NCBI GenBank assembly: GCA_017618275.1
Contig: JAFZUS010000111.1
Location: 1-39,572 of the forward strand
DNA length: 39,572 nucleotides
Source: Prevotella sp.
GTDB lineage: Bacteria > Bacteroidota > Bacteroidia > Bacteroidales > Bacteroidaceae
Direction of reading: 5' to 3'
Shown: positions 3,599 to 35,217 of the stretch, one piece after another
Layout of the letters: every line of letters starts with the position of its first letter
Position numbering within the stretch: the stretch's first letter is position 1
The notes under the pieces: model-generated
The model's database searches: none
Told to the model about the DNA's origin: nothing
What the model saw: the letters and a program-made list of their open reading frames with translations, nothing else
Made by a program: the position numbers and the translations under genes

Positions 3599-3626
3599 TT
3601 AAGAATTAAGAGTTAAGAATTAAGAA
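3599..3626 (+). repeat. Four tandem 7-bp units in the susC-susD gap
   Basis: TTAAGAA, TTAAGAG, TTAAGAA, TTAAGAA follow each other exactly, starting right after the susC stop codon. Together with 11 further bases they form the whole susC-susD spacer. Other heptad runs occur at 14931-14965 and 18534-18575. Confidence 0.85.
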
Positions 3627-3637
3627 AAATAAGCGTT

Positions 3638-11343: not shown

Positions 11344-13137
11344 ATGAGAAAAATTACAATTACACTTTTATTGATTCTCCTTACGGCCTTGCAGGCATCT
11401 GCCTATAAGAGAGAGTCAATTAACATCAACGTGAATGGCAAACAGCGCAACATGGTGGTCTTCACCCCCACTAAGTTGCCAGCCAAGTCGCCCCTGTTTA
11501 TCGTCACACACGGCATGAACCAAGACCCCGAATACCAGTATGGTTCCGACAAGATGTACGAGATGATCGACACGGCCAAGTTTGTCATCACCTACCTGCG
11601 GAGCGACGGCAGTACATGGGATGTGTGGGGTGGTGGCGATCAGGCCTTTGTCCTGAAGACTATCGACGAGATGGCAAGCCGTTTCGACATCGATACCGAT
11701 CGCGTCTACTGGTCGGGCTTCTCCATGGGCTCGATGCTCATCCACAGCAGCATTGGCAACATGCAAAACAAAATAGCGGCTTTTGCACCCACCAGCGGTA
11801 TCATGCAGAACTCAACACCTTGGACCAACTGCAAGAAGCCCGTCAACCTGCTGGAGGTCATTGCATACGACGACAATGTGTTCGGCTACCAACAATACGA
11901 CATTCATGGCTACATTGAAAAATATGCCAAGCACGACAAACATACGAAATACTCGAAGACTACCAGTTATAAGCCGATCAGCAGCAGTTGGTTCAACGGC
12001 GACCTGGAGAAGTGGACCGGGGGACCTAATGGCGGCGAAGTATGGCTCTACTCCTATAACAACGGTGGACACTGGCCCATGGACCTGAACCGTCACCTGA
12101 TCTGGAATTTCTGTAAGAGATTCTCGCTGAATCAGCCAAAGGTGAAAATCACTGAGCCGGCAGGCGATATCACCCATCTCTATTTGGCACCGCCCGAAAA
12201 GATGGTCTTCCCAGACATCACAATTGGTGCCACCGCCCAAGCCGTCAGTGGCGAGGTGGCAAAGGTGGACTTCTATGACGGTAGGAAACTGATAGGCTCG
12301 CAGGAAGCCTCTCCCTACACGGTGACGCTGACAGCCCCTGCATCCGGTAAGCACAATCTGCGCGTAGAGGTGACTGACGACAAGGGTAAGACGGCGGAGG
12401 CTTGGTGCCTCGTGAATTATGCTACGACAAAGAGTTCATACAACCTGTTGCAGAATCTCAAGATCGAGGGTACGGTACCACAAGACTGGTATGCGTGCAG
12501 TGGTTCTACCAAACGTAGTGGTGGTGGGCTTCCTTATACCGCAGGACCTCGCACCCTGCGTTTCACAAGTACCACCCGTGCCTTCCAGTATGGTTTGCTG
12601 GTTCAAAATACTTCGGGAAAGGAGAAGGCCGCGTGGGCACGATTCGGCGACAAGGAAGGCCGTTCACGTATGACATTGCACGAGGGACATTATGTCATCA
12701 AGTACAAAGTGTGCAACTGGAACCGGCCTGAGTTCTCACCGGTGACCATTGCCATCGAGGACCTTAACGGTCAGGAAATTGTCTCTCAAACATATACGCC
12801 CACCGTGAATATCGGTAACAAAACGGACAATAAGTTCACAGGAGTCACCCAACAGACCTTTGAGTTCGATATTCCAAAGACGGGCGATTATGTCATTGCC
12901 ATCTATGCCGATGCTGTTAGGAATGCCGATTTCGTGCTGGGACAACTCAGCATTCAGGCGATGGAATTCTATGATACAGGTATCAAGGATATCCTCAACG
13001 ACGATTTGCAAATTATGAAAAACGGATGCTATGACCTCAACGGACGTAAGATAGATGAAAGCCAGTGGTCGAACGGTCAATTGTCCCCAGGCATATACAT
13101 CATCCATGGCCGTAAAGTCGTGATTAAGCGAGAATAA
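11344..13137 (+). CDS. Multidomain CE1-type carbohydrate esterase (feruloyl/acetyl-xylan esterase-like) with C-terminal sorting-like tail
   Basis: The 597-residue protein has a signal peptide (about 1-20) and an alpha/beta-hydrolase domain to about residue 262. The nucleophile is S127 in G-F-S-M-G-S, H243 in G-G-H-W-P is the likely general base, and D176 or D177 in A-Y-D-D-N is the likely acid. An Ig-like domain follows (about 267-360), then a beta-sandwich (about 365-540) that may bind carbohydrate. The tail, with C-Y-D-L-N-G-R-K and P-G-I-Y-I-I-H-G-R-K-V-V-I, matches the short C-terminal domain of many Prevotella secreted proteins, related to type IX secretion signals. It probably cleaves ferulate or acetyl esters on xylan; which one cannot be told from sequence. 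It ends the enzyme operon and is followed by a terminator hairpin. Confidence 0.82.
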   Translation: MRKITITLLLILLTALQASAYKRESININVNGKQRNMVVFTPTKLPAKSPLFIVTHGMNQDPEYQYGSDKMYEMIDTAKFVITYLRSDGSTWDVWGGGDQAFVLKTIDEMASRFDIDTDRVYWSGFSMGSMLIHSSIGNMQNKIAAFAPTSGIMQNSTPWTNCKKPVNLLEVIAYDDNVFGYQQYDIHGYIEKYAKHDKHTKYSKTTSYKPISSSWFNGDLEKWTGGPNGGEVWLYSYNNGGHWPMDLNRHLIWNFCKRFSLNQPKVKITEPAGDITHLYLAPPEKMVFPDITIGATAQAVSGEVAKVDFYDGRKLIGSQEASPYTVTLTAPASGKHNLRVEVTDDKGKTAEAWCLVNYATTKSSYNLLQNLKIEGTVPQDWYACSGSTKRSGGGLPYTAGPRTLRFTSTTRAFQYGLLVQNTSGKEKAAWARFGDKEGRSRMTLHEGHYVIKYKVCNWNRPEFSPVTIAIEDLNGQEIVSQTYTPTVNIGNKTDNKFTGVTQQTFEFDIPKTGDYVIAIYADAVRNADFVLGQLSIQAMEFYDTGIKDILNDDLQIMKNGCYDLNGRKIDESQWSNGQLSPGIYIIHGRKVVIKRE

Positions 13138-20421: not shown

Positions 20422-22692
20422 ATGGAAAAAGATCTGTTGAACCTTGAAAACGAACTGTGCGAAGAAGAATTTGAGAAGATGCTTCAGGACTTCATCAACA
20501 AGGAGTTCGAAGAAACGAACAATGACCATGACTCTGATGACAATCAAGATGATGCTGATACCCATGAAGAAGACGATGAGCCACAGAAAGACATCTTACC
20601 GATGAGAAATCGGAAGGAAACAGGAAGGCAGGCTTCTTACACCCTTTCTGTCTGTGTGCTTGAAGACTGCGACAAGTCATGCTTTTGCAGTGGACCGGTG
20701 ACGGTGCATTTTGATATTCAGGGAGACGATTTGCCAGATACGGACAGGTTCAAGTGCTTTATCTACACTGACACCTACTACCCGATGTGCTCCTCCTATA
20801 AGTCAAGCGAGGTGTATCGCAACGGTATGGAATTGTCCTACGAGATACCCTGTTCCCACATCTGGCTACCAGGAAAGTATATCCTCCTCGTCCGTGACAA
20901 GGACGAGCCACTTGTCAGGATTAACTTCCAACTCGATGAACACCTTCATACCGAATTCAGCGAACCTATGCTCGTTGAAGACCTCAGTATAGAGGATGTG
21001 CTTACCACCGTACTCCAGGGTGATGAGCATTGGCAATATCTGTCTGTCAGACCTGGGACTATCCAGATGCGCCAGAAGATGTTGGAACGGATGCAACTGA
21101 GGTGCTACAATGACCTGCGCGAAGCACTGGGAAGTGGGTTTATCAGAAGCAATCGGAACCTGCTGATCTGTACCCGCAATAAGGACCTGACGGAATATGA
21201 CCTCCATCATTTTCGGATAGATTTCAGCCATTCCTTATCGTTGGAATATGTTGATTGCTCGATGCTCTACGATCCGGCCTGCAACAACCCGTACGAACAT
21301 CTGAATGATACATTGTTGTCGATATCATCAGATGATATAGTCTGCCTGACCAATCTCAGTGCACTGCTCTCCACAGGTGGAAAGGTGATTGTACGACGGT
21401 TGGTTGAGAAGGTGAAGGATACCACTATCAGGAAATCTCTCTGGCTCTGTGGTACGCGACAGGAGATCCTGACCTTGTTCGATCAGTTCCCTTCGTTGAA
21501 GGAGTTCTATACCGACGACAGTTGGGTGGAGCATGGCCCCTACAGTGCCTTTGACATGATACAGGCATTCTTCCAGATGATGCAGGATGAGAATCTGACA
21601 CCTTCGTTGGCTGTGATGGACCAGGTGTCGCGGGCCATCATCGAGGGTTATCGTCAGTGCAGACTTGTCAGTTGGTCGCTCAGCGACCTGCGCCACATCA
21701 TCACCGACAGCATCCGTCCGCGTTATCTGAAAAGGGCGATGGAGGATATTGACATTGAGGTGTTACCCATCGTGTCGCCTGAGGATGTGGATATGAGCTT
21801 GTTTACTGGTAGCGCCGACACCCTTGAGGACTGTCTGGGTGAACTCAACAAGATGGTGGGTCTCGAACAGGTGAAACAGGGGATAGCCACCTTGGCCAAC
21901 AACACCCGATTCTTCTTGGAGCGTCGCCGCAGAGGACTGCCTACCTCCGGCAATGTGGCCTACCACGCCATCTTCACGGGTAATCCTGGTACGGGTAAGA
22001 CCACCGTAGCCCGTATGCTCGGACGCATCTACCATTCGCTGGGACTGCTCAGCAGGGGAGAGGTGATCGCCGCCGACCGTACCCGTCTTGTGGGCCGTTA
22101 TATTGGTGAGACCGAAGAGAATATGAAGGCTGTACTCGAAGAGGCACGCGGCAATGTACTCTTCATCGACGAGGCCTACAATCTCTACGATGGCTCAGGC
22201 GACCGTAAGGACTTCGGAGCCCGTGTCATCGACTCGCTGCTCACCGTCCTCTCGCAGCCCGATCCTGATATGATGGTCATCTTCGCTGGTTATGAGAAGG
22301 AGATGGACGCTATGCTCAACACCAATCCTGGTCTGACGGGACGTTTCCCTTATAAGTACAGGTTCAGCGACTATAGTCCTGAGCAGTTGATGGAGATTGC
22401 CCTCCGACTGTTGGAGCGTGATGCGTACCTTCTGACTGATGAGGCTTCTGCCGTCCTGAAAGACTCCATTGCCCAGACCTACAAGAGTCGCACCACGAAC
22501 TTCGGCAATGCCCGCTGGGTGGAGCAGTTCGTCCGCAATGGCATCATCCCTGCAATGGCAGACCGTCTCGCTGCTACCCCCTCTGACGACTACCAGCACA
22601 TCGAGGCCTCCGACATCCGCAGGGCCTACGAGAAGTTCAACCCCAAGGCCACTGAACTGAAGCCCCGCCAAAAGGTGGGCTTCAGTGCCTGA
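20422..22692 (+). CDS. CbxX/CfxQ-type AAA+ ATPase with N-terminal extension
   Basis: The 756-residue protein ends in a CbxX/CfxQ AAA+ domain (about 475-745). The Walker A is G-N-P-G-T-G-K-T at 520-527 and the Walker B V-L-F-I-D-E at 579-584, preceded by the family entry motif M-V-G-L-E-Q-V-K. CbxX proteins remodel other proteins (rubisco activation in phototrophs) and elsewhere occur in conflict and secretion loci. Residues 1-70 are very acidic and low-complexity. Residues 75-180 look like a beta-sandwich (L-P-G-K-Y-I-L-L-V). Residues 215-400 may be a degenerate AAA-like domain without a Walker A. No signal peptide. It is followed by two small unrecognised genes on the same strand. The target is unknown. 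Confidence 0.85.
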   Translation: MEKDLLNLENELCEEEFEKMLQDFINKEFEETNNDHDSDDNQDDADTHEEDDEPQKDILPMRNRKETGRQASYTLSVCVLEDCDKSCFCSGPVTVHFDIQGDDLPDTDRFKCFIYTDTYYPMCSSYKSSEVYRNGMELSYEIPCSHIWLPGKYILLVRDKDEPLVRINFQLDEHLHTEFSEPMLVEDLSIEDVLTTVLQGDEHWQYLSVRPGTIQMRQKMLERMQLRCYNDLREALGSGFIRSNRNLLICTRNKDLTEYDLHHFRIDFSHSLSLEYVDCSMLYDPACNNPYEHLNDTLLSISSDDIVCLTNLSALLSTGGKVIVRRLVEKVKDTTIRKSLWLCGTRQEILTLFDQFPSLKEFYTDDSWVEHGPYSAFDMIQAFFQMMQDENLTPSLAVMDQVSRAIIEGYRQCRLVSWSLSDLRHIITDSIRPRYLKRAMEDIDIEVLPIVSPEDVDMSLFTGSADTLEDCLGELNKMVGLEQVKQGIATLANNTRFFLERRRRGLPTSGNVAYHAIFTGNPGTGKTTVARMLGRIYHSLGLLSRGEVIAADRTRLVGRYIGETEENMKAVLEEARGNVLFIDEAYNLYDGSGDRKDFGARVIDSLLTVLSQPDPDMMVIFAGYEKEMDAMLNTNPGLTGRFPYKYRFSDYSPEQLMEIALRLLERDAYLLTDEASAVLKDSIAQTYKSRTTNFGNARWVEQFVRNGIIPAMADRLAATPSDDYQHIEASDIRRAYEKFNPKATELKPRQKVGFSA

Positions 22693-23783: not shown

Positions 23784-24701
23784 TTAGGGAAGCCAATGAG
23801 TAAATGAGAAGAACTGTTCTGTCATGTCAAAATTGGCAATTGACAACAGTTCTTTACTTTTGTAAAACTCACCTTTTTCATACTTATTCTGACTATCTCG
23901 TGCGGGGTCTAGGATAACCCAACGGCTGTCAACGTATGCGGCAGCAACAACATGATTGGTCTTAGGTATGACATGTTCAACATCAATTATCTGTCCGGGC
24001 TTTGCCAAGTAACAAGGCAACTGTTGGGCTGGTATATTCATAGCACGCAACAATGAGACACACAGACTGACATAGCCACGGCATGTCGTACGCCGACGGT
24101 TGAGCACGGCGACTGCCGAGTCATCTTGTCGCACCTTAGCCTGAAGTTCATCATAATCATAAAACAAATTACGAACTACGAATTTGTGTGTTGCCAATAC
24201 TTGGAGGTATTTGTCTTCTGGGCATTTTTCTACAATCTTTGCAGCAATATTCTTTATTGGCTCTTCACTGCTTTGGAAATAGTCGTTGCCCTCAAGACAT
24301 AATTGGAGATGAACTGTGTCTGTTGGAATCCGTTTTAGTTTGTTCATGTTATTGATGATTGCTGGTGTGTTGTGAAAATATGCTTCACGTACATTAACAG
24401 ATATCGGAACACGTATATAAGTTGAATAGTAATCGGAATCAGGAATATGACTACATAATGAAAGGACTTGATGAGCATACGGCAAGATGCTGAGATCATA
24501 TCCTCCATCTGTGTCAGGTTTTATAACTGTACGTTTACCATCTCCTTCTGACGATGCACCAACTAAATTGCGTCCTCGCAATGGTTTTGATTTTCGTAGA
24601 AAGAACATTTTTTTACCCCTAATGACGAGTTTGACAGCCGCGTCGCGGTAAAATGAAGAACAGAATCTATGTTTGAAATCAGTATTCATTGTTTCTGTCA
24701 T
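23784..24701 (-). CDS. Transglutaminase-like cysteine peptidase family protein (copy 1)
   Basis: The 305-residue protein has the transglutaminase-core triad in order: C207 in T-C-R-G-Y, H250 in T-N-H-V-V and D265 in I-L-D-P-A. In bacteria this fold is usually a peptidase or amidase rather than a cross-linker. The core resembles the copy at 32772-33728: both have F-Y-D-Y-D before the core and a C-x-G-Y-x2-L-x-V-S-L-L-R-A-x2-I-P stretch. The N-terminal part (about 1-150) is different and unrecognised. There is no signal peptide, so it acts in the cytoplasm. It is on the opposite strand from the rest of the island and divergent from the WG-repeat gene. Confidence 0.8.
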   Translation of the reverse strand: MTETMNTDFKHRFCSSFYRDAAVKLVIRGKKMFFLRKSKPLRGRNLVGASSEGDGKRTVIKPDTDGGYDLSILPYAHQVLSLCSHIPDSDYYSTYIRVPISVNVREAYFHNTPAIINNMNKLKRIPTDTVHLQLCLEGNDYFQSSEEPIKNIAAKIVEKCPEDKYLQVLATHKFVVRNLFYDYDELQAKVRQDDSAVAVLNRRRTTCRGYVSLCVSLLRAMNIPAQQLPCYLAKPGQIIDVEHVIPKTNHVVAAAYVDSRWVILDPARDSQNKYEKGEFYKSKELLSIANFDMTEQFFSFTHWLP

Positions 24702-24919: not shown

Positions 24920-26014
24920 ATGAAAGTTTGTAATTCATCCAAGATGCGGATGCTCCGCATTTTTGTCTATTTCAAGAAGGTAGGTGTTTTTGTGTTAGGT
25001 GCTTTTTTTATTTTGTGTTTTATCACGGGCTGTTATAACATCTGTCATCGGCCGTTTAGTGGTTTCGTTCATTCGGTCATCCTTGACGACCGCTATGACA
25101 AGTATAATTATCATGAGAACATCAGTGAGCAGATTACCTTTTATGGAAATGGGGCTCATGGTTACATCAGAAACAACGTAACAGGAAAGAAAGTGCTTCG
25201 TGATGTCAGATGGGTCAGGACATCCAGTAAAGAGACCGACACGTTGGCTTGTTATGCCAGTAATGGCTTTCGTGGTTATCTCGATGTCCGGACAGGAAAG
25301 CCAGTTATTCCTGCAGAGCGTTATATAAAGGCATGGCTGTTTTCAGAGGGGCTCGCAGCTATCATGGAGAAGGATAGTACCATCAAGTTCATTGACACCC
25401 GAGGTCAGGTGGTGATTGACAAAGGCTTCCGCTATCCGACTTTTGCTTACGGCTATCTTTTCTATGACAGTCTTTGCGCCATGACTGACAGATCTGGTAA
25501 GTGGGGTGTCATCAATAGGGCAGGTGAGTGGGTTGTCCGTCCGGAATACGATGGTATAGCACATAATGATGCTGGTTTTTGGCAATTGAGCAAAGATGGT
25601 AAGAAAGGTCTGCTTGATAAGAAAGCGATATCTATACTTCCAATGGAATATCGAAATATAGAAGTTCTGGAACAAGGCATCTCCGTTGTGCTCGACGACT
25701 ATACTATGCGTATGATGAATTATGATGGTTCACTTAAGTACAAGTTTGTCTGTGATGAATTGGATGATCTTTATTATTCCACTCCAGAGACCGATGAAAC
25801 GGGTTGTGATATACGGAAGTTGGCACCATGCAAGGCTTACAATACATATGAGGGGCATTGTGGCTTGCTGGGGCCAGATGGTATACCTCTCACACTGCCG
25901 CTCTTCACCGGCATATCAGCAGTTAATGCCAACCTCTATTATTGTAGGTTTGACCATTCTGACAGTGGTGTTATCATGGATAGTAAAGGCAGAATAGTTA
26001 ATGAGTCATACTGA
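24920..26014 (+). CDS. WG-repeat protein with N-terminal membrane or lipoprotein anchor
   Basis: The 364-residue protein has a hydrophobic segment at about 20-38 ending in F-I-T-G-C, compatible with a lipobox or a single membrane anchor. The rest is built from WG (KWG) beta repeats, seen as G-K-W-G-V-I-N-R-A-G-E-W-V-V-R-P-E-Y-D, K-D-G-K-K-G-L-L-D-K-K and more diverged copies such as R-G-Y-L-D-V-R-T-G-K-P-V-I-P. WG-repeat proteins are common in Bacteroidota and are thought to be binding scaffolds; no partner is known. The first codons contain other possible ATGs (residues 9 and 11). Gene debris follows it. Confidence 0.78.
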   Translation: MKVCNSSKMRMLRIFVYFKKVGVFVLGAFFILCFITGCYNICHRPFSGFVHSVILDDRYDKYNYHENISEQITFYGNGAHGYIRNNVTGKKVLRDVRWVRTSSKETDTLACYASNGFRGYLDVRTGKPVIPAERYIKAWLFSEGLAAIMEKDSTIKFIDTRGQVVIDKGFRYPTFAYGYLFYDSLCAMTDRSGKWGVINRAGEWVVRPEYDGIAHNDAGFWQLSKDGKKGLLDKKAISILPMEYRNIEVLEQGISVVLDDYTMRMMNYDGSLKYKFVCDELDDLYYSTPETDETGCDIRKLAPCKAYNTYEGHCGLLGPDGIPLTLPLFTGISAVNANLYYCRFDHSDSGVIMDSKGRIVNESY

Positions 26015-26563: not shown

Positions 26564-26587
26564 TATGAAAATGACAGAAGACAAATG
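26564..26587 (+). other. Seven-codon leader ORF coupled to the sigma-factor start
   Basis: ATG at 26564 opens M-K-M-T-E-D-K followed by TGA. That TGA overlaps the sigma-factor ATG as ATGA (26585-26588), the classic arrangement for translational coupling. It may equally be an accidental short frame. Confidence 0.3.
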
Positions 26588-27157
26588 ACAGATCAGGAAA
26601 TTATACAAGGATTGATAGAGCGGAACAATCGGGTAACGACAGAATTCTTCTTTAAGGATTGTCGTCCGCTCTTCTGTAGTATCATCAACTATGTTTTTGA
26701 CTATGAGGTGGACTACGATGAGTTCGTGAATGAGTTGTATATGTATCTGATGGAGAATGATGCGCAGAAACTAAGGAACTTCCAGTTCCGCAGTTCAGTG
26801 TACATGTGGCTGAAGATTCTTGCTATCCGTTATTTCATCAAGAAACGTGCTTTCATGATAGATGATAGCAGCCAAGAGACTCCTTATGATGGGCGAGACC
26901 AAAAAGCAGCCACAGAATCAGATATGACTGCAGGGGGAGATTTAGAACGACTTTTTATGGCGATGTCTAATCAACGCTATGTGTGTGTTCTCAGGAAACT
27001 GGTTATCGAAGATATGGAGCCAGAGCAACTGGCTAAAGAGATGGGAACTACGACTGCAAACCTATATAATATAAAAAAGCGTGCGATGGCTCAACTGACC
27101 CGTGTCGCTCTTAATGACAGTAAAGAATATGGCAAAAAAAGATTATATATCCGATGA
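26585..27157 (+). CDS. ECF-like sigma-70 family RNA polymerase sigma factor
   Basis: The 190-residue protein has the two-domain layout of extracytoplasmic-function sigma factors. A region-2-like helical segment covers about residues 10-95 (Y-D-E-F-V-N-E-L-Y-M-Y-L-M and S-S-V-Y-M-W-L-K-I-L-A). A region-4-like helix-turn-helix covers about 125-180 (D-M-E-P-E-Q-L-A-K-E-M-G-T-T-T-A-N-L-Y-N-I-K-K-R-A). A linker of about 25 residues joins them. It overlaps the following gene by 29 bases (27129-27157). The next protein starts with an anti-sigma-like segment, so the two probably form a regulatory pair for the island. Confidence 0.82.
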   Translation: MTDQEIIQGLIERNNRVTTEFFFKDCRPLFCSIINYVFDYEVDYDEFVNELYMYLMENDAQKLRNFQFRSSVYMWLKILAIRYFIKKRAFMIDDSSQETPYDGRDQKAATESDMTAGGDLERLFMAMSNQRYVCVLRKLVIEDMEPEQLAKEMGTTTANLYNIKKRAMAQLTRVALNDSKEYGKKRLYIR

Positions 27158-28052
27158 AATGCTGGCTGCTTATCTTGAAGGTAACACCAACGAGGAAGAA
27201 ACGAGAAAAGTAATTCGGGCCCTGAATACCGACAAGGAATTGCAGGAAGTGCTTGACATTGCTCTGAAAGTAGAAGAACTTGAGTATATTCCCATGCTTC
27301 AGATTGCTGCTGCTAGCGGTGAGAATATCTGTGCAGTACTCTGTGAGATGTTTATCCTTCATCGACGACAACTACCATACGATGAGGAATGGCTTGTAAA
27401 TATAGCAAGAAGGAAAGATTGGCTAAGACCCGAAGGTACACCGCTTTATTGTGTAGGCAACCTTTTGGCATATTCTGGATTGTTTGTAAGCAGGAAATAC
27501 AATGCCACACTTGATGATATCCAACGGGCTATCCAGATGGATAATGATGTTGTCGTGGGTGTAGATCGTGAAAAACTCTATGCAGAAGCAGTAGATGCGG
27601 AAGACTTGACAAACCATGCAGTGGTTGTGACCCATATAGATAATGATGTCATTAGGGTTTTTGACCCATATGAGCCACCGTATTATTCTAATGTACCGCT
27701 TTCAGATTTTCTTAATGCATGGAAGGAATCGTGTAATTATATGATTCAAGTTCTCCAGTCGGTGGAAGAATATGAACCTCATCCAATTGATGTCGATGAC
27801 ATTCCTTTAGATGGCGATTTGGAAGAATTGCAGGAAGCGATTGCTGAAAATGCTCATGATGTTTGGGCGGAAGCCAGGATAAAGGAGGGATGGTCATATG
27901 GTAAGGAAAGAGATGATGTGAAAAAGCATAATCCTGACATCATTCCATATACAGCATTATCTGATAGTGAGAAAGAGTATGATCGTATTATGGCATTTAA
28001 AACGATAAAACTGGTTAAGAAACTAGGATTTGATATCGTAAAACGTCGTTAG
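27129..28052 (+). CDS. Anti-sigma-like / C39-type peptidase-like / RyR-domain fusion
   Basis: I place the start at M-A-K-K-D-Y-I-S (27129), giving 307 residues; upstream ATGs only extend into the sigma gene. Residues about 5-50 (I-S-D-E-M-L-A-A-Y-L-E-G-N) resemble the N-terminal part of anti-sigma factors. Residues about 55-210 look like a C39/papain-like cysteine peptidase with C68 or C72 as nucleophile (E-N-I-C-A-V-L-C), H163 in T-N-H-A-V-V-V and D179 in V-F-D-P-Y. Residues about 243-304 fit the RyR domain: H-D-V-W-A-E-A-R-I-K-E-G-W, Y-G-K-E-R-D and L-G-F-D-I. Prokaryotic RyR domains are proposed ligand sensors in conflict systems. The architecture suggests ligand binding that triggers proteolysis and sigma release; that mechanism is inference. 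Confidence 0.7.
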   Translation: MAKKDYISDEMLAAYLEGNTNEEETRKVIRALNTDKELQEVLDIALKVEELEYIPMLQIAAASGENICAVLCEMFILHRRQLPYDEEWLVNIARRKDWLRPEGTPLYCVGNLLAYSGLFVSRKYNATLDDIQRAIQMDNDVVVGVDREKLYAEAVDAEDLTNHAVVVTHIDNDVIRVFDPYEPPYYSNVPLSDFLNAWKESCNYMIQVLQSVEEYEPHPIDVDDIPLDGDLEELQEAIAENAHDVWAEARIKEGWSYGKERDDVKKHNPDIIPYTALSDSEKEYDRIMAFKTIKLVKKLGFDIVKRR

Positions 28053-28117
28053 TTGGATGAATTATGGGCTAACGCAACACGAACTCACGTTAGATTAGCA
28101 TTTCTTTTTCTTGTCTT

Positions 28118-28158
28118 ACATGCCCCAACGCACCACAATGAAGTGCGTTGGGGCATGT
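28118..28158. terminator. 16-bp perfect inverted repeat between the sigma/RyR pair and the JAB-E1 operon
   Basis: ACATGCCCCAACGCAC (28118-28133) is the exact reverse complement of GTGCGTTGGGGCATGT (28143-28158), with a 9-base loop. Only GTTATTAT follows, so it is a weak-tailed terminator for the upstream pair. On the minus strand it would be followed by AAGAAAAAG, so it is not bidirectional. The region 28053-28289 shows no convincing gene. Confidence 0.6.
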
Positions 28159-28289
28159 GTTATTATAAAAATCATTTAGTGTTAATAAATGTAAAACAGG
28201 GGGGCTCGGTGAAAGAAAAAAGAAATGAAAGCCTCATTATGAATAGAAACACCTGAAATGGTTCAGGCAAATAATAAAATAAAAGAAAA

Positions 28290-28736
28290 ATGAAACAATT
28301 CAATGAATTAAAGCACGGACAGCCTCAGATCAGTTTTTCAAGAGGTGCAGACAATAAGAGAGGCCCAGTGGAACTCCAGCCTGGTATTCTCTGCGTGGAT
28401 TATCTTTATGGAAGTCTTAAGAATATCCTCTATAGATCCAAGGTTACCGATTATGGACGATACTTTGATTTTGTGTTCAACTACATCAATGTTGGCCGTT
28501 ATTGGGAGATTGATATCGTACGATTTCCAGACTATAGAGGCAGAAGTACAAGTGCGTATGTTATTCATACCTTGCCTTCTGACCGTGGCGGGCGGAAGAT
28601 ATGTGTTGCCACTGGGCATGAGCCGAGAAGCGAGCGTGATGCCAAGAAACTGTCCATGAGTTGGGCGGACCTACAGGCAGAGTATATCAAGACCGGCAAA
28701 ACCCCTGATGATCAGATTAGAGACAATCATCGTTAA
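28290..28736 (+). CDS. E2-like or CEHH-type metal-binding protein linked to JAB-E1
   Basis: The 148-residue protein has no signal peptide. Two readings are possible. In the first it is a divergent E2 (ubiquitin-conjugating-like) fold: strands around Y71-R78, F79-P80, then H93 followed by G-G-R-K-I-C at C105, and W125, in the order F-P, H, G-x-I-C, W typical of E2 cores. In the second it is the predicted metal-binding domain with ordered C, E, H, H (here C35, E73, H93, H110) that I recall being described next to prokaryotic ubiquitin-system genes. Both fit its place 59 bases before the JAB-E1 gene. I cannot decide between them by eye. Confidence 0.5.
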   Translation: MKQFNELKHGQPQISFSRGADNKRGPVELQPGILCVDYLYGSLKNILYRSKVTDYGRYFDFVFNYINVGRYWEIDIVRFPDYRGRSTSAYVIHTLPSDRGGRKICVATGHEPRSERDAKKLSMSWADLQAEYIKTGKTPDDQIRDNHR

Positions 28737-28795
28737 GAGCAAAAAATTATTTTCAATAGAATATGTATATTATAAATTTATTAAAACTTACAATT

Positions 28796-30283
28796 ATGAA
28801 AAAGTTATCAAACCATCATTCTTACAGTATGCCAGAAGACCGTTTTGAGCACAATCCTTTTGGCGTGAAAAAGGTTGCCTTTTCGCCAAAGGCTATCAAG
28901 CAGATAGAGAAGACCATAGGAAGCCGACATGCGGAAGACGGAGGCGCTCTCTTCGGAAAACCTGAAGAACTCGCATCGTGCATCCCTTATATCCGCGAGT
29001 TTGTGTTTGACGATAGTGCCAATACCACCCATGTGACGTATACGATTAATACGAAGAAATTGAACCCCATTATCCATAAAATGTGGGAGCAGGATGGTCT
29101 AGAACTACAAGGTCTTATCCATTCTCATCCCATAGGATATCGTTATCCCTCAGGTCCGGACATGACCTATTTCCATCGTATGCACACATACATGGATCGA
29201 CGATTCCTTATTACCCCCATTGTCTTCACTCAGCCAGACGGAGGTTTTAAGTTATTCTGTTATCTGGTTGGTCCTGATACTCCCCCAATTGAGGTCGATT
29301 ATTGTATCATGGATGAAACCGAATATAAGAATGCCATAGATGAAGAGACGAAAGATATTGACTATTCCCGTGAGGAAGGCGCTGTCGACGTCGCAATGGT
29401 CAATAGAAGTAAAATAGTTACTGTTGGTACAGGTGGTTCGTACACAGTTTCCGGTATGTTTGCACGCAGCGGCGTTGGTGAAATGGTTGGAATTGATCCG
29501 GACACAGTTGATGCTACGAATCTGTGTCGTCAGGGTTATTTGCCTCGCCAAGTCGGTATGCTGAAGGTTGACGCTCTCGGTGAGTATGTAAAGGAGATTA
29601 ATCCACACGTAAAATATACTGGTTATCCTGTCAAACTTCAGGATCTTACTCCAGAACAGGAGCAGGAGATATTCGGTTCTGCAAGTCTTGTTATCTTTAC
29701 GACAGATTCTTTCGAGGCGCAGGCCTATGGAAACAAGATAGCGCTCCGCTATAACATTCCTGCCATCTGGGGTGGCTTTTATGAGAAGTCGATGGCTTCT
29801 GAAATTGTGTTTTACATTCCAGGAGTGACTCCGGCCTGTTTCCGTTGCGCAGTTTCAACACGCTACAAGTTTCAAGAAGAATACAAGGCCAAAAACAACG
29901 GCAAAGAACTCAGTGTCAGTTCTTCCTGTAACACAATTTTTCATTCTGCCCTTCTTGACGCCCAAATCGGAATGCTAGCCATGGCCATACTCCACAATAA
30001 GGTTGAAGGTAAGACTTTCTCGGGTTGGTTCGGTGATCATTTTGATCAAAATTTCATTCAGATGAAAGTTAATCCGCTGTACAAATCAGGTATCTTCAAT
30101 CGTGTGTTTGCCGGTTCTGGTGATTCCGCATACCTCTTTGAATCTGTTTGGCAGCACATTGAAGCAGAGGTCCCTCCAAAGTATGAACTTTGTCCAGATT
30201 GCCATGGAGGTGTAAACCTGCAAGACGCAATAATCGAACAAAAGGAAATAATTGAAGATGGCGAGGAGCGCCAATCTGCTTAA
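28796..30283 (+). CDS. JAB (JAMM) peptidase - E1-like (ThiF/MoeB) adenylating enzyme fusion
   Basis: With the start at 28796 the protein has 495 residues. Residues about 20-165 form a JAB domain with an intact JAMM zinc site: E47, H109, H111, S119 and D122 in H-S-H-P-I-G-Y-R-Y-P-S-G-P-D. Residues about 195-460 form the E1-like Rossmann domain with glycine loop G-T-G-G-S (211-215), G-I-D-P-D-T-V-D for ATP binding and N-L-C-R-Q-G. A zinc tetrad is suggested by C-F-R-C and C-P-D-C. JAB cleaves ubiquitin-like conjugates or processes precursors; E1 adenylates the ubiquitin-like C-terminus. Having both in one chain pairs activation with removal. It lies between the 148-residue gene and a PH-like gene. 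Confidence 0.85.
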   Translation: MKKLSNHHSYSMPEDRFEHNPFGVKKVAFSPKAIKQIEKTIGSRHAEDGGALFGKPEELASCIPYIREFVFDDSANTTHVTYTINTKKLNPIIHKMWEQDGLELQGLIHSHPIGYRYPSGPDMTYFHRMHTYMDRRFLITPIVFTQPDGGFKLFCYLVGPDTPPIEVDYCIMDETEYKNAIDEETKDIDYSREEGAVDVAMVNRSKIVTVGTGGSYTVSGMFARSGVGEMVGIDPDTVDATNLCRQGYLPRQVGMLKVDALGEYVKEINPHVKYTGYPVKLQDLTPEQEQEIFGSASLVIFTTDSFEAQAYGNKIALRYNIPAIWGGFYEKSMASEIVFYIPGVTPACFRCAVSTRYKFQEEYKAKNNGKELSVSSSCNTIFHSALLDAQIGMLAMAILHNKVEGKTFSGWFGDHFDQNFIQMKVNPLYKSGIFNRVFAGSGDSAYLFESVWQHIEAEVPPKYELCPDCHGGVNLQDAIIEQKEIIEDGEERQSA

Positions 30284-30299
30284 AGTACTTTATATTATT

Positions 30300-30593
30300 A
30301 TGCCACACGTATTCACTTCATCTCACCTAACGAAGGGAAACATGGTTTTTCCTATCACGATCATGATTGATGGTAGTCACTTGTATTACAGCAAGGACTT
30401 TGTCATAGGTCGAAACAGAATAGCCATCCCTTTGGCCAGTATTGCCAGTGTAGGTTTGGTTAACAAGATTCTTTTTTCTGATTTGGTTGTAGAGACAAGG
30501 GGAGGCCGTGTGCTTTATTTCAATGGTTTTACACATTCTGATGCAAGGAGGATGTACGACCTCTTAAGAAATATCGGTCGAATCAATAGGTAA
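30300..30593 (+). CDS. Small PH-like domain protein
   Basis: The reading frame extends upstream, but the ATG at 30300 (M-P-H-V-F) follows the JAB-E1 stop by 16 bases and is preferred over TTG or ATG codons inside that gene. The 97 residues contain seven short beta strands (I-T-I-M-I-D-G, L-Y-Y-S, R-I-A-I-P-L-A-S-I-A-S-V, D-L-V-V-E-T, V-L-Y-F-N) and a final helix (S-D-A-R-R-M-Y-D-L-L), the order of a pleckstrin-homology-like fold. Its function is unknown. It could tether the complex or bind a conjugate. There is no terminal Gly-Gly to suggest a ubiquitin-like modifier. Confidence 0.6.
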   Translation: MPHVFTSSHLTKGNMVFPITIMIDGSHLYYSKDFVIGRNRIAIPLASIASVGLVNKILFSDLVVETRGGRVLYFNGFTHSDARRMYDLLRNIGRINR

Positions 30594-30625
30594 TGTAATG
30601 AAAACATTTTTTAAGTTTGCAGGAT

Positions 30626-32755
30626 ATGAGATATAATGATTTGTTTGACCCCAAAGCACTTCGTGTAATGGCTTTAGCCAAAAGAGGCGCTATTTCTAAA
30701 AGCAAGCCCGCAATTACAAGTTTTATGGTTGCGAAAGTTATTATTATAAATAACGAGGATGTATCCAGAAGAGTCTTCGGCGAAATGCAATTGGATGCAA
30801 CAGAATTTCATAGAATGGCTAATGATCGAATCAATGAAATGCCCACTGTGTCAGATCCTTCTCCGTATGTTGACGATGAATTGGACGGAGTGGTTCGCGA
30901 AAATGTCAGTTATGACGGTGGCGGAAATGCCATCGCCGGTTCTGTGACGACAGAATCGATGCTTCGAACGATTCTTCAACATCATCGTGATGAATTCAAC
31001 GAATACATTCAGCATCAGCATGCTGCTCCCGGTAGAACTCAACCTCGAAATATCCTCGAGCGTTTCACTACAGACTGGACTAAACTGGCCTCAAGGGGAA
31101 GAATTTCTCCTGTAATTGGACGCGATAATGAATTGCAGGCGCTTGAAAGATCGCTACTTCGGAAAACGAAGAATAATCCTGTTTTGACAGGAGATGCGGG
31201 AGTTGGAAAAACTGCAATAGTTGAAGGCTTTGCCGTCAAGATTTCACAGGGAGATGTTCCCGAGAAACTATGTACGGCAAAAATTCTGGAACTTGATACC
31301 GTATCACTACTGGAAAGTTCTGGTTTAGGTGGTTTTAAAGATGCTATGACGATTGCTGCACAATCTAAAGACATTATTCTTTTCATTGACGAGATGCATG
31401 CTCTTCCTGCAGGTGTGCTTGACACTTTAAAGCCCTTCATGGCACGTGGAGAATTAAGGCTTATTGGTGCTACCACTGCAGAAGAGTATTCAAGAGTTCT
31501 TGAATCTGATAAAGCTTTTGCCCGCCGCCTACAAAGAATTGAGATTCCAGAATTGTCTGAGCCCGATACATTAGTTGTCCTTAAAAACATCAAACCAGGA
31601 TTCGAGGAACATCATGGTGTTCGGATTGGTGATGACGCATTGAAGGCTGCCGTTGAATTGTCGCAGCGATATCTCATCAACCGTAGGCAACCTGATAAGT
31701 CTATTGATCTTATTGATGAGGCTGCAGCAAAGGTCCGTATGGCAGGAGTGTCTGGGCAAGTATGTGAGGATGATATCCGTGAGATACTTTCGAAAAAGAC
31801 AGGCATTCCTGTGGAAAAGATTGGAACAGACGAAGCGGCTCGTCTGATGAATCTGGAACAGAATCTTGCAGCCGATGTTCTTGGTCAGTCAGAAGCGGTA
31901 TCTGTTGTCTCAAATGCAGTACGACGCAATGGTGTCGGTCTTTCAGATGCACATCGACCGATAGGATCTTTCCTGTTCGTTGGCTCATCCGGTGTCGGTA
32001 AAACCGCTCTTGCCCAAGCATTGGCAAAGATCCTTATGGGCACTCCTGATGCACTATTACGTATAGATATGAGCGAATACCGGGAGCCTCACACTGTAAG
32101 CCGTTTGATAGGTAGCCCTCCAGGATATGTTGGTTATAATGCTGGAGGTCAATTGACGGAAGCCGTAAGCCGCAGACCTTACCTTGTCGTTCTGTTTGAC
32201 GAGATAGAAAAGGCAGATAAAGCGGTATTTGAACTTCTCTTACAGGTTTTGGATTACGGTAGATTGACAGACGGACGCGGTCGAACCGTTGATTTTCGGA
32301 ATACCATTATTATATTCACGAGTAATCTTGGTTCACAAGACATCTCTATCCGGAAAAGAATTGGCTTTGAAACAACAGACGAAGATGCTTCAAAGTGTCA
32401 GGAGAATAGTTCCGCTATCCGTAACTATTTCACTCCAGAATTCCTGAACCGCTTAGATGGCATTGTACATTTCAACAAACTCAGTACTCCCGTTCTTCTT
32501 GACATTGCCCGCAAATTGCTGTCTGAATTACGTGAATCTCTTGACACCAAAGGATATATCGTCGAATTCGACAATTCTGTTGCAGAGTATATTGTTTCTT
32601 TAGACGCAGGTATGGGACAAGGGGCAAGACCAATCCGTCGGGCCATTGAGAAAAACATCACTGACGCCATCGTGTCGATGATTCTTTCAGGAAGATTGGC
32701 CAAAGGAGTAAGAACGACACTGTCCGTATCAAATGGTATTTTACAAATTGTATGA
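30626..32755 (+). CDS. ClpA/ClpC-type double AAA+ unfoldase
   Basis: I take the start at M-R-Y-N-D (30626), giving 709 residues. Residues about 1-130 are a divergent Clp N domain. The first AAA+ module has Walker A G-D-A-G-V-G-K-T at 189-196 and the second G-S-S-G-V-G-K-T at 453-460, with Walker B motifs I-L-F-I-D-E and V-V-L-F-D-E. There is no coiled-coil M domain between the modules, so it is not ClpB-like. The second module carries R-K-R-I-G-F (I579-F581), the place and form of the ClpP-docking loop of ClpA/ClpC. This suggests it feeds substrates to a peptidase. It lies in the JAB-E1 operon, so targets may be modified proteins. Confidence 0.9.
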   Translation: MRYNDLFDPKALRVMALAKRGAISKSKPAITSFMVAKVIIINNEDVSRRVFGEMQLDATEFHRMANDRINEMPTVSDPSPYVDDELDGVVRENVSYDGGGNAIAGSVTTESMLRTILQHHRDEFNEYIQHQHAAPGRTQPRNILERFTTDWTKLASRGRISPVIGRDNELQALERSLLRKTKNNPVLTGDAGVGKTAIVEGFAVKISQGDVPEKLCTAKILELDTVSLLESSGLGGFKDAMTIAAQSKDIILFIDEMHALPAGVLDTLKPFMARGELRLIGATTAEEYSRVLESDKAFARRLQRIEIPELSEPDTLVVLKNIKPGFEEHHGVRIGDDALKAAVELSQRYLINRRQPDKSIDLIDEAAAKVRMAGVSGQVCEDDIREILSKKTGIPVEKIGTDEAARLMNLEQNLAADVLGQSEAVSVVSNAVRRNGVGLSDAHRPIGSFLFVGSSGVGKTALAQALAKILMGTPDALLRIDMSEYREPHTVSRLIGSPPGYVGYNAGGQLTEAVSRRPYLVVLFDEIEKADKAVFELLLQVLDYGRLTDGRGRTVDFRNTIIIFTSNLGSQDISIRKRIGFETTDEDASKCQENSSAIRNYFTPEFLNRLDGIVHFNKLSTPVLLDIARKLLSELRESLDTKGYIVEFDNSVAEYIVSLDAGMGQGARPIRRAIEKNITDAIVSMILSGRLAKGVRTTLSVSNGILQIV

Positions 32756-32771
32756 AATAAACGTTATTGAC

Positions 32772-33728
32772 ATGGATACTTATCACACTTCATATTGTAA
32801 ACCACTTAATATGATTATAGATACAGAGGAACGTGGACTCTACTTCAGAAGAATCCCAATAGGGAGTTCTTTTGACAGGTTTCTTGTACGTGTTGTCGGC
32901 AGCGACGGACAATGTGCATTCTCAGGTGATTTCTATCGAAATGGGAGACTGTATCTGTCAACGGGTAACCTTCCTGATGGAGACTATTTCCTTGAGGTTT
33001 TCAATTGTGCAAGGGAATCTGGACGATTTAGAGGATATGTTCAAAACAATGAGGCTCATGTGAGAGTTGTTAATGGTACTCCATCATTCTGTGAACCGTG
33101 GTGTTTACGAGACAATACCTCGATTATCCAACGGTTCAGTCATACACGAAGGACGATCCAACAACTGCTTGCTGCAGATAGTTCCTATCCTTGTCATCAT
33201 CCGGAAATCAAACGACAGGCCGCTTCTATTACTGCAGGGATAGAGGATGACTATGGTAAATTGCTTGCCGTTCACGACTGGGTGGCAGAGAATGTCTTTT
33301 ACGACTATGACTCTTTGCGTCAGGACAGCCATCGGTTAGTTTCTGTCGGAAGGTCTACGATTGAAGTTTTAAGAACGAGGAGGGCAGTCTGCCAAGGTTA
33401 TTCTGACCTGGCAGTCTCTCTTCTCCGAGCCTGTGGTATCCCTTCGGTCAGTATCGGGTGCTTTGCCCTTGGACAGGGTTGTTCGGGAGGATGGGAGAGG
33501 CTGGAAAACCGCGTTAACCGTCCTAATCATGCTTTCACCACAGCCTTGATTCTCGGCAGATATGTCATGATGGATATAACTTGGGATTCCGACAACGAGT
33601 ATTCAGGCGGTCGGTATAAATATAAGACTGGATATGGCAAAACACGAAAGTACTTTGATGTTTCACCAATACTTCTTTCGGCAACCCACCGCCTTATTTA
33701 CAATTCTGAGGATTATAACTCTGATTAA
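32772..33728 (+). CDS. Transglutaminase-like cysteine peptidase family protein (copy 2)
   Basis: The ATG at 32772 gives 319 residues and lies 16 bases after the Clp-type stop; the earlier ATG at 32733 is within that gene. The N-terminal beta-sandwich (about 5-105, with N-L-P-D-G-D-Y-F-L-E-V) vaguely recalls the corresponding part of the CbxX-type protein. The core has C207 in V-C-Q-G-Y, H253 in P-N-H-A-F and D268 in M-D-I-T-W, the complete transglutaminase-type triad. No signal peptide. It ends the JAB-E1-Clp gene run. A second copy sits at the other side of the island on the opposite strand. Confidence 0.82.
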   Translation: MDTYHTSYCKPLNMIIDTEERGLYFRRIPIGSSFDRFLVRVVGSDGQCAFSGDFYRNGRLYLSTGNLPDGDYFLEVFNCARESGRFRGYVQNNEAHVRVVNGTPSFCEPWCLRDNTSIIQRFSHTRRTIQQLLAADSSYPCHHPEIKRQAASITAGIEDDYGKLLAVHDWVAENVFYDYDSLRQDSHRLVSVGRSTIEVLRTRRAVCQGYSDLAVSLLRACGIPSVSIGCFALGQGCSGGWERLENRVNRPNHAFTTALILGRYVMMDITWDSDNEYSGGRYKYKTGYGKTRKYFDVSPILLSATHRLIYNSEDYNSD

Positions 33729-33912: not shown

Positions 33913-35217
33913 ATGGATCACGATGTTTTTATAAGCTACTCAAGCCAGGACATGAAGGCAGCCCAAGCCATTTGCCATGTCTTAGAACAGAACGAAATAA
34001 GGTGTTGGATGGCGCCTCGTAACATTCCACCAGGATCCGACTATGGTGATGTGATAGACGATGCCATCAAGTCATGTAAGGTTGTTGTCGTCATTTTCTC
34101 TGAAACAGCAGCAGAATCCCAATGGGTTAAGGGTGAACTTAACATCGCCTTTGAGGAGCAGAAAACCATCATTCCATTCCGACTTGACAATACGCCCTTA
34201 AAAGGCCAAAATCGGGTGATGCTCAATAAGACACACTGGATAGATGCCTATCCCGATTATAAGATCAAGTTTAACGACCTGGTGACTGCCGTAGCCTTGT
34301 CCGTTGGAAAGGAAGTCATTAGTGGCCCCCCCCCCTTGCCCCCAAAGACGACGGACTACAAGAAGCCCATCATCATCGGCGTGATTTCAATTCTGATCAT
34401 CGCAGCGATTTCATTTATATATCCTCTTATTGCCAAGCAGATGCATTCCTTTACCTACGACAAACAGGGACTGCATGTAAAGATAAAGGGGCTCACGACT
34501 CCGCAAGAAGAGGCTATAGCCACTCTATTAGACAATATGGTCTTAGTCGACGGAGGCATATTTGCCATGGGCAATACCGAGGAAATGGCCGACTATCTGA
34601 CAGAGCAAGACAGCCTGAGCAATACTATTCATGAAGTAGAATTGGATAAATTCTACATTTGCAAATATGAGGTAACTCAAAAACAATGGAGGGCGTTCTT
34701 TCCTACAGAAGGCAAATGTATTGCAGACGGAGAAGACACAGCCATGGACATGCTGTCATGGGAGGATGCGAAGGCATTTGCAGACACACTTTCCACCATC
34801 TCAGGACTTCGATTCGCTTTGCCTACAGAGGCACAATGGGAGTTTGCTGCCAGAGGCGGGACAAAAACTCACCATTACATTTTTTCCGGGAACGATGACG
34901 CGACAGAGGTCGGCTGGACTTCGTTTGAAGAACTGACTTCGGCACATGAAGTAGGCGGAAAGCGATACAATGAGTTAGATCTTTATGATATGACGGGGAA
35001 TGTGATGGAATGGTGCAGTGACTATTTCGACCTGTACTCATCAGAGAAAGTGGTGAATCCTCAGGGGCCGAGCAAGGGTGTCAATCGTGTGTTGCGTGGT
35101 GGAGATTTCCGGATAGAGAACCTCTACGACATGAAAACGGCTACCAGATATTTCGATTCTCCCTTTGTCAACAGACGGGGAGCCGGACTCAGACTAGTCA
35201 TTAACATTGAAAAATAG
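33913..35217 (+). CDS. TIR - transmembrane - FGE-fold (formylglycine-generating-enzyme-like) protein
   Basis: The 434-residue protein starts with a TIR domain (about 3-130): D-V-F-I-S-Y-S-S-Q-D, C-W-M-A-P-R-N-I-P-P-G, and the likely catalytic E75 in S-Q-W-V-K-G-E-L, as in NAD-cleaving TIRs. A proline-rich linker (138-144) encoded by a C10 tract leads to one membrane helix (about 152-174). Residues about 207-432 are an FGE-sulfatase fold: L-P-T-E-A-Q-W-E-F-A-A-R-G-G, G-N-V-M-E-W and V-L-R-G-G-D. The C-terminal region lacks the cysteine pair of true FGE, so it is probably a binding module. Expected topology is TIR inside and FGE outside the inner membrane. It leads an operon with an NTF2-like and two WD40 proteins. 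Confidence 0.88.
   Translation: MDHDVFISYSSQDMKAAQAICHVLEQNEIRCWMAPRNIPPGSDYGDVIDDAIKSCKVVVVIFSETAAESQWVKGELNIAFEEQKTIIPFRLDNTPLKGQNRVMLNKTHWIDAYPDYKIKFNDLVTAVALSVGKEVISGPPPLPPKTTDYKKPIIIGVISILIIAAISFIYPLIAKQMHSFTYDKQGLHVKIKGLTTPQEEAIATLLDNMVLVDGGIFAMGNTEEMADYLTEQDSLSNTIHEVELDKFYICKYEVTQKQWRAFFPTEGKCIADGEDTAMDMLSWEDAKAFADTLSTISGLRFALPTEAQWEFAARGGTKTHHYIFSGNDDATEVGWTSFEELTSAHEVGGKRYNELDLYDMTGNVMEWCSDYFDLYSSEKVVNPQGPSKGVNRVLRGGDFRIENLYDMKTATRYFDSPFVNRRGAGLRLVINIEK
34326..34335 (+). repeat. C10 homopolymer inside the TIR-FGE gene
   Basis: Ten consecutive C encode part of G-P-P-P-L-P-P in the linker between the TIR domain and the membrane helix. Such tracts can slip. A gain or loss of one base would leave a free cytoplasmic TIR domain with no membrane or FGE part. 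Confidence 0.9.

Follow-up and report, generated by a model that had tools for sequence, protein, structure and literature searches.

Which genes belong together where enzymes of ubiquitin-type conjugation are encoded next to an unfoldase, and what could such enzymes conjugate if no ubiquitin-like protein (Ubl) is evident nearby? These questions are raised by a Prevotella sp. locus in the first 39,572 bases of contig JAFZUS010000111.1 (assembly GCA_017618275.1), a stretch referred to below as the window. The contig (C191 in our own numbering of genomes, G, contigs, C, and loci, L) is 163,837 bases long, and its source assembly comprises 3.6 Mb in 213 contigs and is 92% complete. A sequence-only reading of the window had listed seven plus-strand genes, from 26585 to 33728, for a sigma factor, a C39-like peptidase with an RyR domain, an E2-like protein, a JAB-E1 fusion, a PH-like protein, a Clp-type unfoldase and a transglutaminase-like protein. 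It had proposed that they constitute one tag-and-degrade system under its own sigma factor. All seven open reading frames (ORFs) are present at those positions and the gene assignments hold, that of the PH-like protein weakly. We found that the conserved unit is best read as a four-part conjugation cassette of an E2-like protein, a JAMM peptidase, a ThiF-type E1 and a short peptide. The new element is a conserved short-peptide partner of E2-JAB-E1 enzymes, which is well supported; its chemistry is what we infer. That the peptide stands in for a Ubl as the conjugated modifier is a tentative proposal, to which we give close to, if less than, an even chance.

Distribution of the E2-JAB-E1 core

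The conserved core of the locus is E2-JAB-E1. In the window, the E2-like (predicted UBC-fold) protein of 148 residues is encoded at 28290..28736 (+) and the JAB-E1 fusion, a JAMM peptidase joined to a ThiF-type adenylating domain with four zinc-type cysteines, at 28796..30283 (+; the start is either 28763 or 28796). Nine other loci with this core were found in Bacteroidota, Ignavibacteriales and Planctomycetota, and the gene order E2-like, JAB, E1 was the same in all nine. The JAB and the E1 are separate genes at these loci, and the fusion occurs in the window alone.

The core is rare. A search of 301 genomes of the family detected the core JAB-E1 only in the source genome itself. Among 393 genomes of the order, the source genome, G903 (of the same order) and G1046 matched at high score, and a match in G792 (2.6e-26) represents a more distant set. 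In a sample of the phylum, 34 of 395 genomes matched at E ≤ 1e-10, mostly through single ThiF-type domains of about 30% identity, and G575 was the one clear relative; in its family (246 genomes) the core was found in G575 itself only. A genome-contig collection was also scanned with a four-sequence E1 alignment. Of 78 matched stretches, 9 encode relatives, three of which are contigs already found (L043, L045 and L050 are the contigs of L040, L041 and L032). Phages, plasmids and viral contigs gave remote ThiF-type matches only, or none. Scanning of ten proteins for mobility functions located a VirD4/TraG-type coupling protein near the core in L048, G903, L046, L047 and G575, a relaxase in L048, G903 and L046, and a serine recombinase in L049; because these genes lie close by, the core appears to be often on mobile elements. 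Conjugation or mobilisation genes were noted near the core in L040, L046, L047, L048, L049 and L032.

A short peptide accompanies the core

All ten core loci encode a short peptide with the motif [IL]-x-[PDG]-G-[TV]-L-H. It is free, with 19-71 residues, in six of them: the window's genome, G575 (locus L032), L047, L048, L049 and L051. In the other four (L040, L041, L044 and L046) it takes the form of three to five tandem units, for example GGEEIKPGTLH, at the N-terminus of the E2-like protein. There are three such units in G903, five in L044 and four each in L046 and G1046, two of those in G1046 being degenerate.

The peptide gene of the window's genome lies past the end of the window, 12.4 kb downstream of the E2 gene (C191:41173-41388, or L072:1601-1816; C191 numbering continues that of the window). 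It encodes 71 residues with four AGEDIEPGTLH units. Upstream of it lie a second, diverged version of the E2 leader and a truncated copy of the E2 start. The E2 leader itself spans 28187..28300 (+) and contains the palindrome CCTGAA-N4-TTCAGG at 28252. The palindrome is repeated in the leader copy at C191:40998, and these are the two occurrences in 79.4 kb. The alignment of the two leaders scored 92 versus at most 24 in 30 shuffles. The N-terminus of the window E2 itself retains one degenerate unit, VELQPGILC. The other free peptides are shorter. ORFs of 19-20 residues are located upstream of E2 in G575 (ending in GVLHS), L048 and L049 (both GTLHA) and L047 (GTLHTN), and a 33-residue ORF with two full units and one degenerate unit lies between E2 and JAB in L051, behind a strong ribosome-binding site, AAAGGAGGTGAT.

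The strict motif was found in 8 of the 10 core regions, compared with 1 of 1000 dinucleotide shuffles; the two regions without it are that of the window, whose peptide gene is distant, and that of G575, where the form is LQGGVLH. In 344 genomes of the order, the unit pattern was matched in five, and more than one match was confined to G000 and G903, which both have the core. The four matches in the window's own genome are all inside the 71-residue peptide gene. The single matches in G885, G910 and G976 were taken as chance, there being one match each; that of G976 falls within a long open frame of a seemingly unrelated protein, those of G885 and G910 meet stops within 60 codons, and none of these three genomes had a core match in the order-wide search. 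No viral contig contained the tandem-unit pattern. Since the motif was absent from the distant E2-JAB-E1 or JAB-E1 sets (L033-L035 and L042), our claim is confined to the family of ten. At the distant set of L033 (JAB and E1 at 4218-5159 and 2739-3656 on the minus strand, flanking an E2-like ORF), the N-terminus of the E2-like protein has a possible degenerate unit, VQQDTFHG, which was not counted.

The coding sequences of the peptides are biased towards synonymous change. The four C191 units are identical as protein, and their six pairwise comparisons sum to 39 synonymous differences over 48 sites and 0 nonsynonymous over 150. The two full L051 units differ by 7 bases, all synonymous. For the fused arrays, the synonymous and nonsynonymous counts were 25 and 5 (G903), 53.5 and 23.5 (L044), 37.5 and 20.5 (L046) and 37.2 and 32.8 (G1046), or 0.64-1.03 synonymous (pS) versus 0.07-0.22 nonsynonymous (pN) differences per site; the unit pairs entering these counts are not independent. 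Between genomes, the tiny ORFs of L048 and L049 differ by 5 synonymous and 1 nonsynonymous changes, and that of G575 differs from these two by 7 and 10 and by 6 and 9, respectively (pS 0.49-0.57, pN 0.20-0.22). This synonymous excess makes it very likely that the peptide is translated and indicates that its sequence matters. We are confident that the peptide belongs with the E2-JAB-E1 core. As far as sequences can tell, the parts of the cassette, the linkage of peptide to enzymes and the selection on the peptide are established. The string PGTLH did not occur in the literature text searched, whose coverage excludes figures and most subscription journals, and titles and abstract openings of the literature on bacterial conjugation systems described no such peptide.

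The position of the motif bears on how the peptide may be used. Each of the six free peptides ends one or two residues after LH, as would be expected if the C-terminus of the peptide is the part used. The main rival to a conjugated peptide is that the units serve docking or tethering. In that case, the disordered N-terminus of E2 would bind E1 or JAB through its LH units, free peptides would act in trans as regulators or inhibitors, and a host protein or an unrecognised Ubl would be conjugated. The placement of the units at the E2 N-terminus in four genomes fits this idea, as does their number, several copies being compatible with avidity. The E2 of NEDD8 has an N-terminal docking peptide. Residues 1-25 of the modelled window E2 also have a predicted local distance difference test (pLDDT) score below 50, the model being of the window E2 rather than of a unit-bearing one. 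However, six genomes encode a free gene of 19-71 residues with little beside the motif, and docking would not require the motif to sit within one or two residues of the stop in every free peptide. We consider docking the less likely reading and retain the conjugated peptide as the preferred one.

Properties of the E2-like protein, JAB and E1

The E2-like protein is recognised by its predicted fold. The AlphaFold2 model of the window E2 has an overall pLDDT of 79.9 and a predicted template modelling score of 0.72. In the VIA-align fold list, the complex of CdnG and E2 from the cyclic oligonucleotide-based antiphage signalling system (CBASS) was closest, and UFC1 stood next to the CBASS E2. There was no convincing Pfam match (only Inp1 at E 0.086, below its cut-off) and no match to NCBIfam, PADLOC (E ≤ 0.01) or PDB sequences, and membership in a Pfam or PDB sequence family was rejected on these grounds. 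Alignment by hhalign of the E2 family with two related E2s, one being that of L042, which PADLOC E2 models match, was not significant. H93, C105 and E111 are invariant in the family and C105 and E111 are spaced as are C138 and E144 of BilB. The protein had been called E2-like or CEHH; the predicted fold supports the first, and the second is not supported, as the window protein has no histidine at +8 or +13.

The catalytic motifs of the other two enzymes are intact, as had been claimed, and Pfam profiles support both assignments (ThiF, PF00899, 3.8e-24; Prok-JAB, PF14464, 1.8e-5, at 25.0 bits just at its cut-off). In the JAB part, the JAMM residues E47, H109, H111, S119 and D122 are invariant in all nine aligned sequences. 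Seven of the eight separate JABs measured, L051 being left out, have a C-terminal membrane-type hydrophobic segment (19-residue mean 1.86-2.96); the L041 JAB and the window JAB have none. In the E1, G24, G26, G27, R58, K70, D117, C161, C164, C279 and C282 are invariant in nine of nine sequences, and we take these to be ATP-site and zinc-type positions. The cysteine of the SxCN sequence, presumably the usual E1 crossover position, is present in five of nine aligned E1s and absent in L051; if this is the catalytic position, an E1 thioester could not be needed in all members. A profile of the nine E1s matched UBA5 (3.5e-17) and MccB (7.4e-16) in the PDB ahead of MoeB and ThiF.

Two further rivals are to be weighed. 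One is conjugation without a Ubl as in type II CBASS, where E1 and E2 would attach a larger protein of the locus or host by its C-terminus, JAB would reverse the attachment and the peptide would be a regulator or pseudo-substrate. There is precedent in PMC10097602: the cGAS conjugated by Cap2 lacks a ubiquitin fold and ends in Gly or Ala, and a tandem fusion of cGAS is cut by Cap3. In addition, the PADLOC E1-E2 and JAB models match the JAB-E1 fusion (best 1.1e-14 and 2e-7), and the closest listed fold of the E2 is the CBASS complex. On the other hand, PADLOC detected no CD-NTase among the eight window proteins scanned, and no protein common to the ten loci beyond the peptide and the three enzymes was noticed in their gene lists, which were compared by eye with no all-against-all comparison. 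We regard this possibility as rather improbable.

The other is a pathway like those of ribosomally synthesised and post-translationally modified peptides (RiPPs). Here, the E1 would modify precursor cores that JAB or another peptidase releases as a small product. MccB is among the best PDB matches of the E1 profile, and tandem cores and very short precursors are known among RiPPs. In the same gene lists, again examined by eye, the loci were not seen to share an exporter or a gene for self-immunity, and the words "JAB" and "E2-like" are absent from the portion consulted of a review of ThiF-type RiPP pathways (PMC12250964). We regard a RiPP-like pathway as very improbable.

Search for a ubiquitin-like protein

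The sequence-only reading had noted that no Ubl gene is evident, which is correct as far as tested; the likely stand-in is the LH-peptide gene outside the window. The JAB-E1 fusion is the single ThiF-family match in its genome. At E ≤ 0.01, Pfam profiles detected no ThiS or MoaD in this 92% complete genome, with the control matched in 12 of 14 genomes. Multi_ubiq likewise had no Pfam match, with its control matched in only 1 of 14 genomes and BilA not used as a query; a Ubl of an unfamiliar type, or one encoded in the missing 8%, would have escaped these searches. Among the operon proteins, Pfam showed no tandem ubiquitin-like domains; tandem 11-residue peptides are found with the enzymes instead.

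A proposed model for the peptide cassette

We infer the following scheme for the chemical steps, the targets, the role of Clp and the signal. JAB would trim or cut the peptide precursor, often a tandem one, just after LH or LH-Gly/Ala. E1 would adenylate the exposed C-terminus of the peptide, which would then be passed on to E2, at its cysteine C105, and finally to a target. JAB could remove the peptide from the target again. The targets may be at the membrane, since the JAB of most relatives has a C-terminal membrane-type segment. In the window's genome, an ancestral E2 has apparently given rise both to an E2 with hardly any repeat left and to a distinct 71-residue peptide gene with a copied leader, the JAB and E1 were fused, and the PH-like, Clp and transglutaminase-like proteins were added, Clp perhaps delivering to ClpP. 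The whole picture, in which an E1-E2-JAB cascade with an unfolded 11-residue modifier, often encoded as a polyubiquitin-like array, is wired to Clp in a defence-like island, is possible, and we hold it somewhat less likely than not.

The remaining genes of the seven

Beside the core in the other nine loci, the stretches read contain no homologues of the sigma factor, the C39-RyR protein or the transglutaminase-like protein, and none of Clp except for a weak 56-residue P-loop match in L051. The conserved co-occurrence that the sequence-only reading would lead one to expect was thus not found, and the seven genes as a conserved system were rejected because their composition recurs in no other locus read.

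The first two genes look like a separate regulator module. The ECF-like sigma factor is encoded at 26585..27157 (+) and matched TIGR02937 (4.4e-10; 39.4 bits, slightly under the cut-off of 42.9). It is followed at 27138..28052 (+; the start may be 27102) by a C39-like cysteine peptidase with a C-terminal RyR domain (PF02026, 2e-29). The C39 region of the window protein itself had no Pfam match; Peptidase_C39_2 was matched in five of eight aligned homologues, the window counted, and Cys65 and His160 are invariant in all eight. When the protein was searched against 295 genomes of the order, 20 had a C39 or RyR match, the source genome included. Of the eight other genomes with a C39-region match, the neighbourhoods of seven were read (L074-L080, with G836 left out), and a sigma homologue lay directly upstream of C39 in every one. 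A sigma factor followed by a C39-like peptidase, with or without RyR, thus recurs, with TIR/STAND or dynamin-like neighbours in four of the seven. The cargo in L076 includes a TIR protein (with weak SIR2 similarity), nSTAND1 and WG, and that in L078 TIR, nSTAND1, WD40, RyR and WG; L079 and L080 have dynamin-type GTPases with or without Hsp70, L077 has unknown genes, and L074 and L075 have no clear cargo. The pair looks like a general regulator module used with varied, defence-like cargo, and C39 may act as its trigger. The terms RyR, sigma factor and C39 are absent from the main text of a 2020 eLife paper on conflict systems (PMC7159879).

The region between the pair and E2 is consistent with this separation. 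The 237-bp gap with a hairpin described earlier is real (28053-28289) and contains a perfect 15-bp inverted repeat at about 28119..28157 (+), read from the sequence, which is a candidate terminator-like or regulatory element. The leaders of the sigma factor and E2 shared no sequence above shuffles, and control of E2 by its own sigma factor was rejected for want of a common leader.

The last three genes are an addition to the core in the window genome. The PH-like protein of 97 residues (30300..30593, +) matched bPH_3 at E 0.0076, with 17.1 bits under a cut-off of 23. It has a homologue two genes downstream of E1 in L044, an Ignavibacteriales locus (35% over 83 residues, E 2.5e-9); a CAP-domain gene of the cysteine-rich secretory family (L044:10892-11407) was seen between E1 and the PH-like gene there. 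The Clp-type unfoldase (30617..32755, +) has 712 residues, two AAA+ domains and Pfam support for its assignment (AAA_2, 5.4e-62; ClpB_D2-small, 3.8e-13), and the transglutaminase-like protein (32733..33728, +) matched Transglut_core at 3.9e-13. The gaps are as short as had been reported, with 16-59 bp across E2, JAB-E1, PH and Clp depending on the start and a 23-bp overlap of Clp and transglutaminase, and this tight spacing argues that the three are transcribed with E2 and JAB-E1.

The Clp protein carries the loop RKRIGFETT. An IGF/IGL-type loop in the second AAA+ domain is a feature of ClpP partners of the ClpA and ClpC type. The paralogues in the same genome that we take to be ClpA-like and ClpC-like have ANIGF and GVGF, respectively, and the one we take to be ClpB-like has no loop. 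Since the loop of the Clp protein is like the former two and unlike the latter, docking to ClpP, whose gene is present in the genome (at C179), is plausible from sequence.

With these data the proposal of one seven-gene system can be weighed. Its core idea of tagging and unfolding is partly retained, as conjugation enzymes do stand with a Clp unfoldase that has a loop of the ClpP-docking kind; that the set is one dedicated system is not. The tight spacing from E2 to the transglutaminase, the IGF loop together with a genomic ClpP and the recurrence of PH beside the core in L044 are in its favour. Against it, the composition was seen nowhere else, the sigma-C39 pair adjoins unrelated genes as its cargo in other genomes, a hairpin separates the pair from E2, and the sigma and E2 leaders are unlike. 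Such a system under its own sigma factor is highly unlikely.

Genomic context

The locus lies in an island that continues past the window end. The island starts after an RNase R-like gene (named by eye; it ends at 19905), approximately where guanine-cytosine content drops from 0.47-0.55 (up to about 23 kb) to 0.40-0.45 (profile windows). Near this start, a CbbX-like AAA protein (20422-22692) and a second transglutaminase-like gene (23784-24701) are encoded on the minus strand, and a WG-repeat protein at 24920-26014, with WG homologues also present in L076 and L078. A TIR-FGE protein (33913-35217) follows the transglutaminase gene. Past the window, there are WD40, the peptide gene, a DUF4062-NTPase-TPR protein, two single RyR proteins (L072:9379-9693 and 11967-12260) and a TIR-hexapeptide protein located between these two (L072:9379-12260 is C191:48951-51832). 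The island looks defence-like and also contains the separate sigma-C39-RyR regulator and TIR, STAND and WD40 genes.

Comparison with known systems

To our knowledge, descriptions of ubiquitin-type conjugation generally make a beta-grasp modifier a requirement, and CBASS is the known exception. If the peptide is indeed conjugated, E1-E2-JAB chemistry would need no ubiquitin fold, with a peptide partner kept from Bacteroidota to Planctomycetota. Peptide-activating E1s such as MccB would be linked to E2 cascades. The cassette would also offer a peptide tag that is minimal and easy to make and can be tested in vitro for both conjugation and removal. More generally, where a conjugation operon appears incomplete, its partner gene may simply be too short to have been annotated.

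The cassette resembles several systems in part; the accounts below draw on excerpts of the papers cited. The Bub operons (PMC13373217) encode a bacterial ubiquitination-like pathway with switchable upstream regulators, which are CapW, CapH with CapP, and CapK with CapS, not sigma-C39. For the 6A-MBL anti-phage system, NCBIfam NF058523 (cap2_3) scored 56.2 bits, below its cut-off of 320. UBA5 and UFC1 resemble the E1 and E2, UBA5 heading the PDB matches of the E1 profile and UFC1 standing beside the CBASS E2 in the fold list; both similarities are distant and UFM1 is a Ubl. BilABCD (PMC11354881) also has E1, E2 and JAB in one operon and an E2 cysteine followed by Glu at +6. However, BilA has two Ubl domains, of which none was seen here and in whose place there is a peptide gene, and H146 and H151 of BilB have no counterpart, the upstream H93 being invariant instead.

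In type II CBASS, E1, E2 and JAB activities of Cap2 and Cap3 likewise act on a C-terminus without a ubiquitin fold (PMC10097602). The substrate there is the CD-NTase, whereas here there are a short peptide, a separate E2 and, in the window, a JAB-E1 fusion. MccB and MccA of microcin C7 share a ThiF-type E1, a very short peptide substrate and C-terminal activation (PMC12250964, PMC13255007). MccB adenylates the C-terminus of a heptapeptide and, where that peptide ends in Gly, can transfer the adenylate to an external thiol; MccA-N7G was trapped by external thiols as a thioester (PMC13255007). The product, however, is a peptide-nucleotide antibiotic, and the parts consulted of the two papers mention neither an E2 nor a JAB partner. 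MccB also has an N-terminal peptide-recognition (RRE) domain (PMC12250964); the E1 part of the window protein directly follows the JAB.

There is also a likeness in architecture to the 6e polyUbl operons of Iyer 2006 (PMC1779556). These too have a JAB on the E1 N-terminus, as in the window only, a tandem modifier array that in some species is fused to the E2-like domain, and a patchy distribution partly on mobile elements. The difference lies in the array, which in 6e consists of two to three ubiquitin-like domains with an E2-like domain lacking the cysteine, and here consists of 11-residue units with an E2-like protein whose cysteine is invariant.

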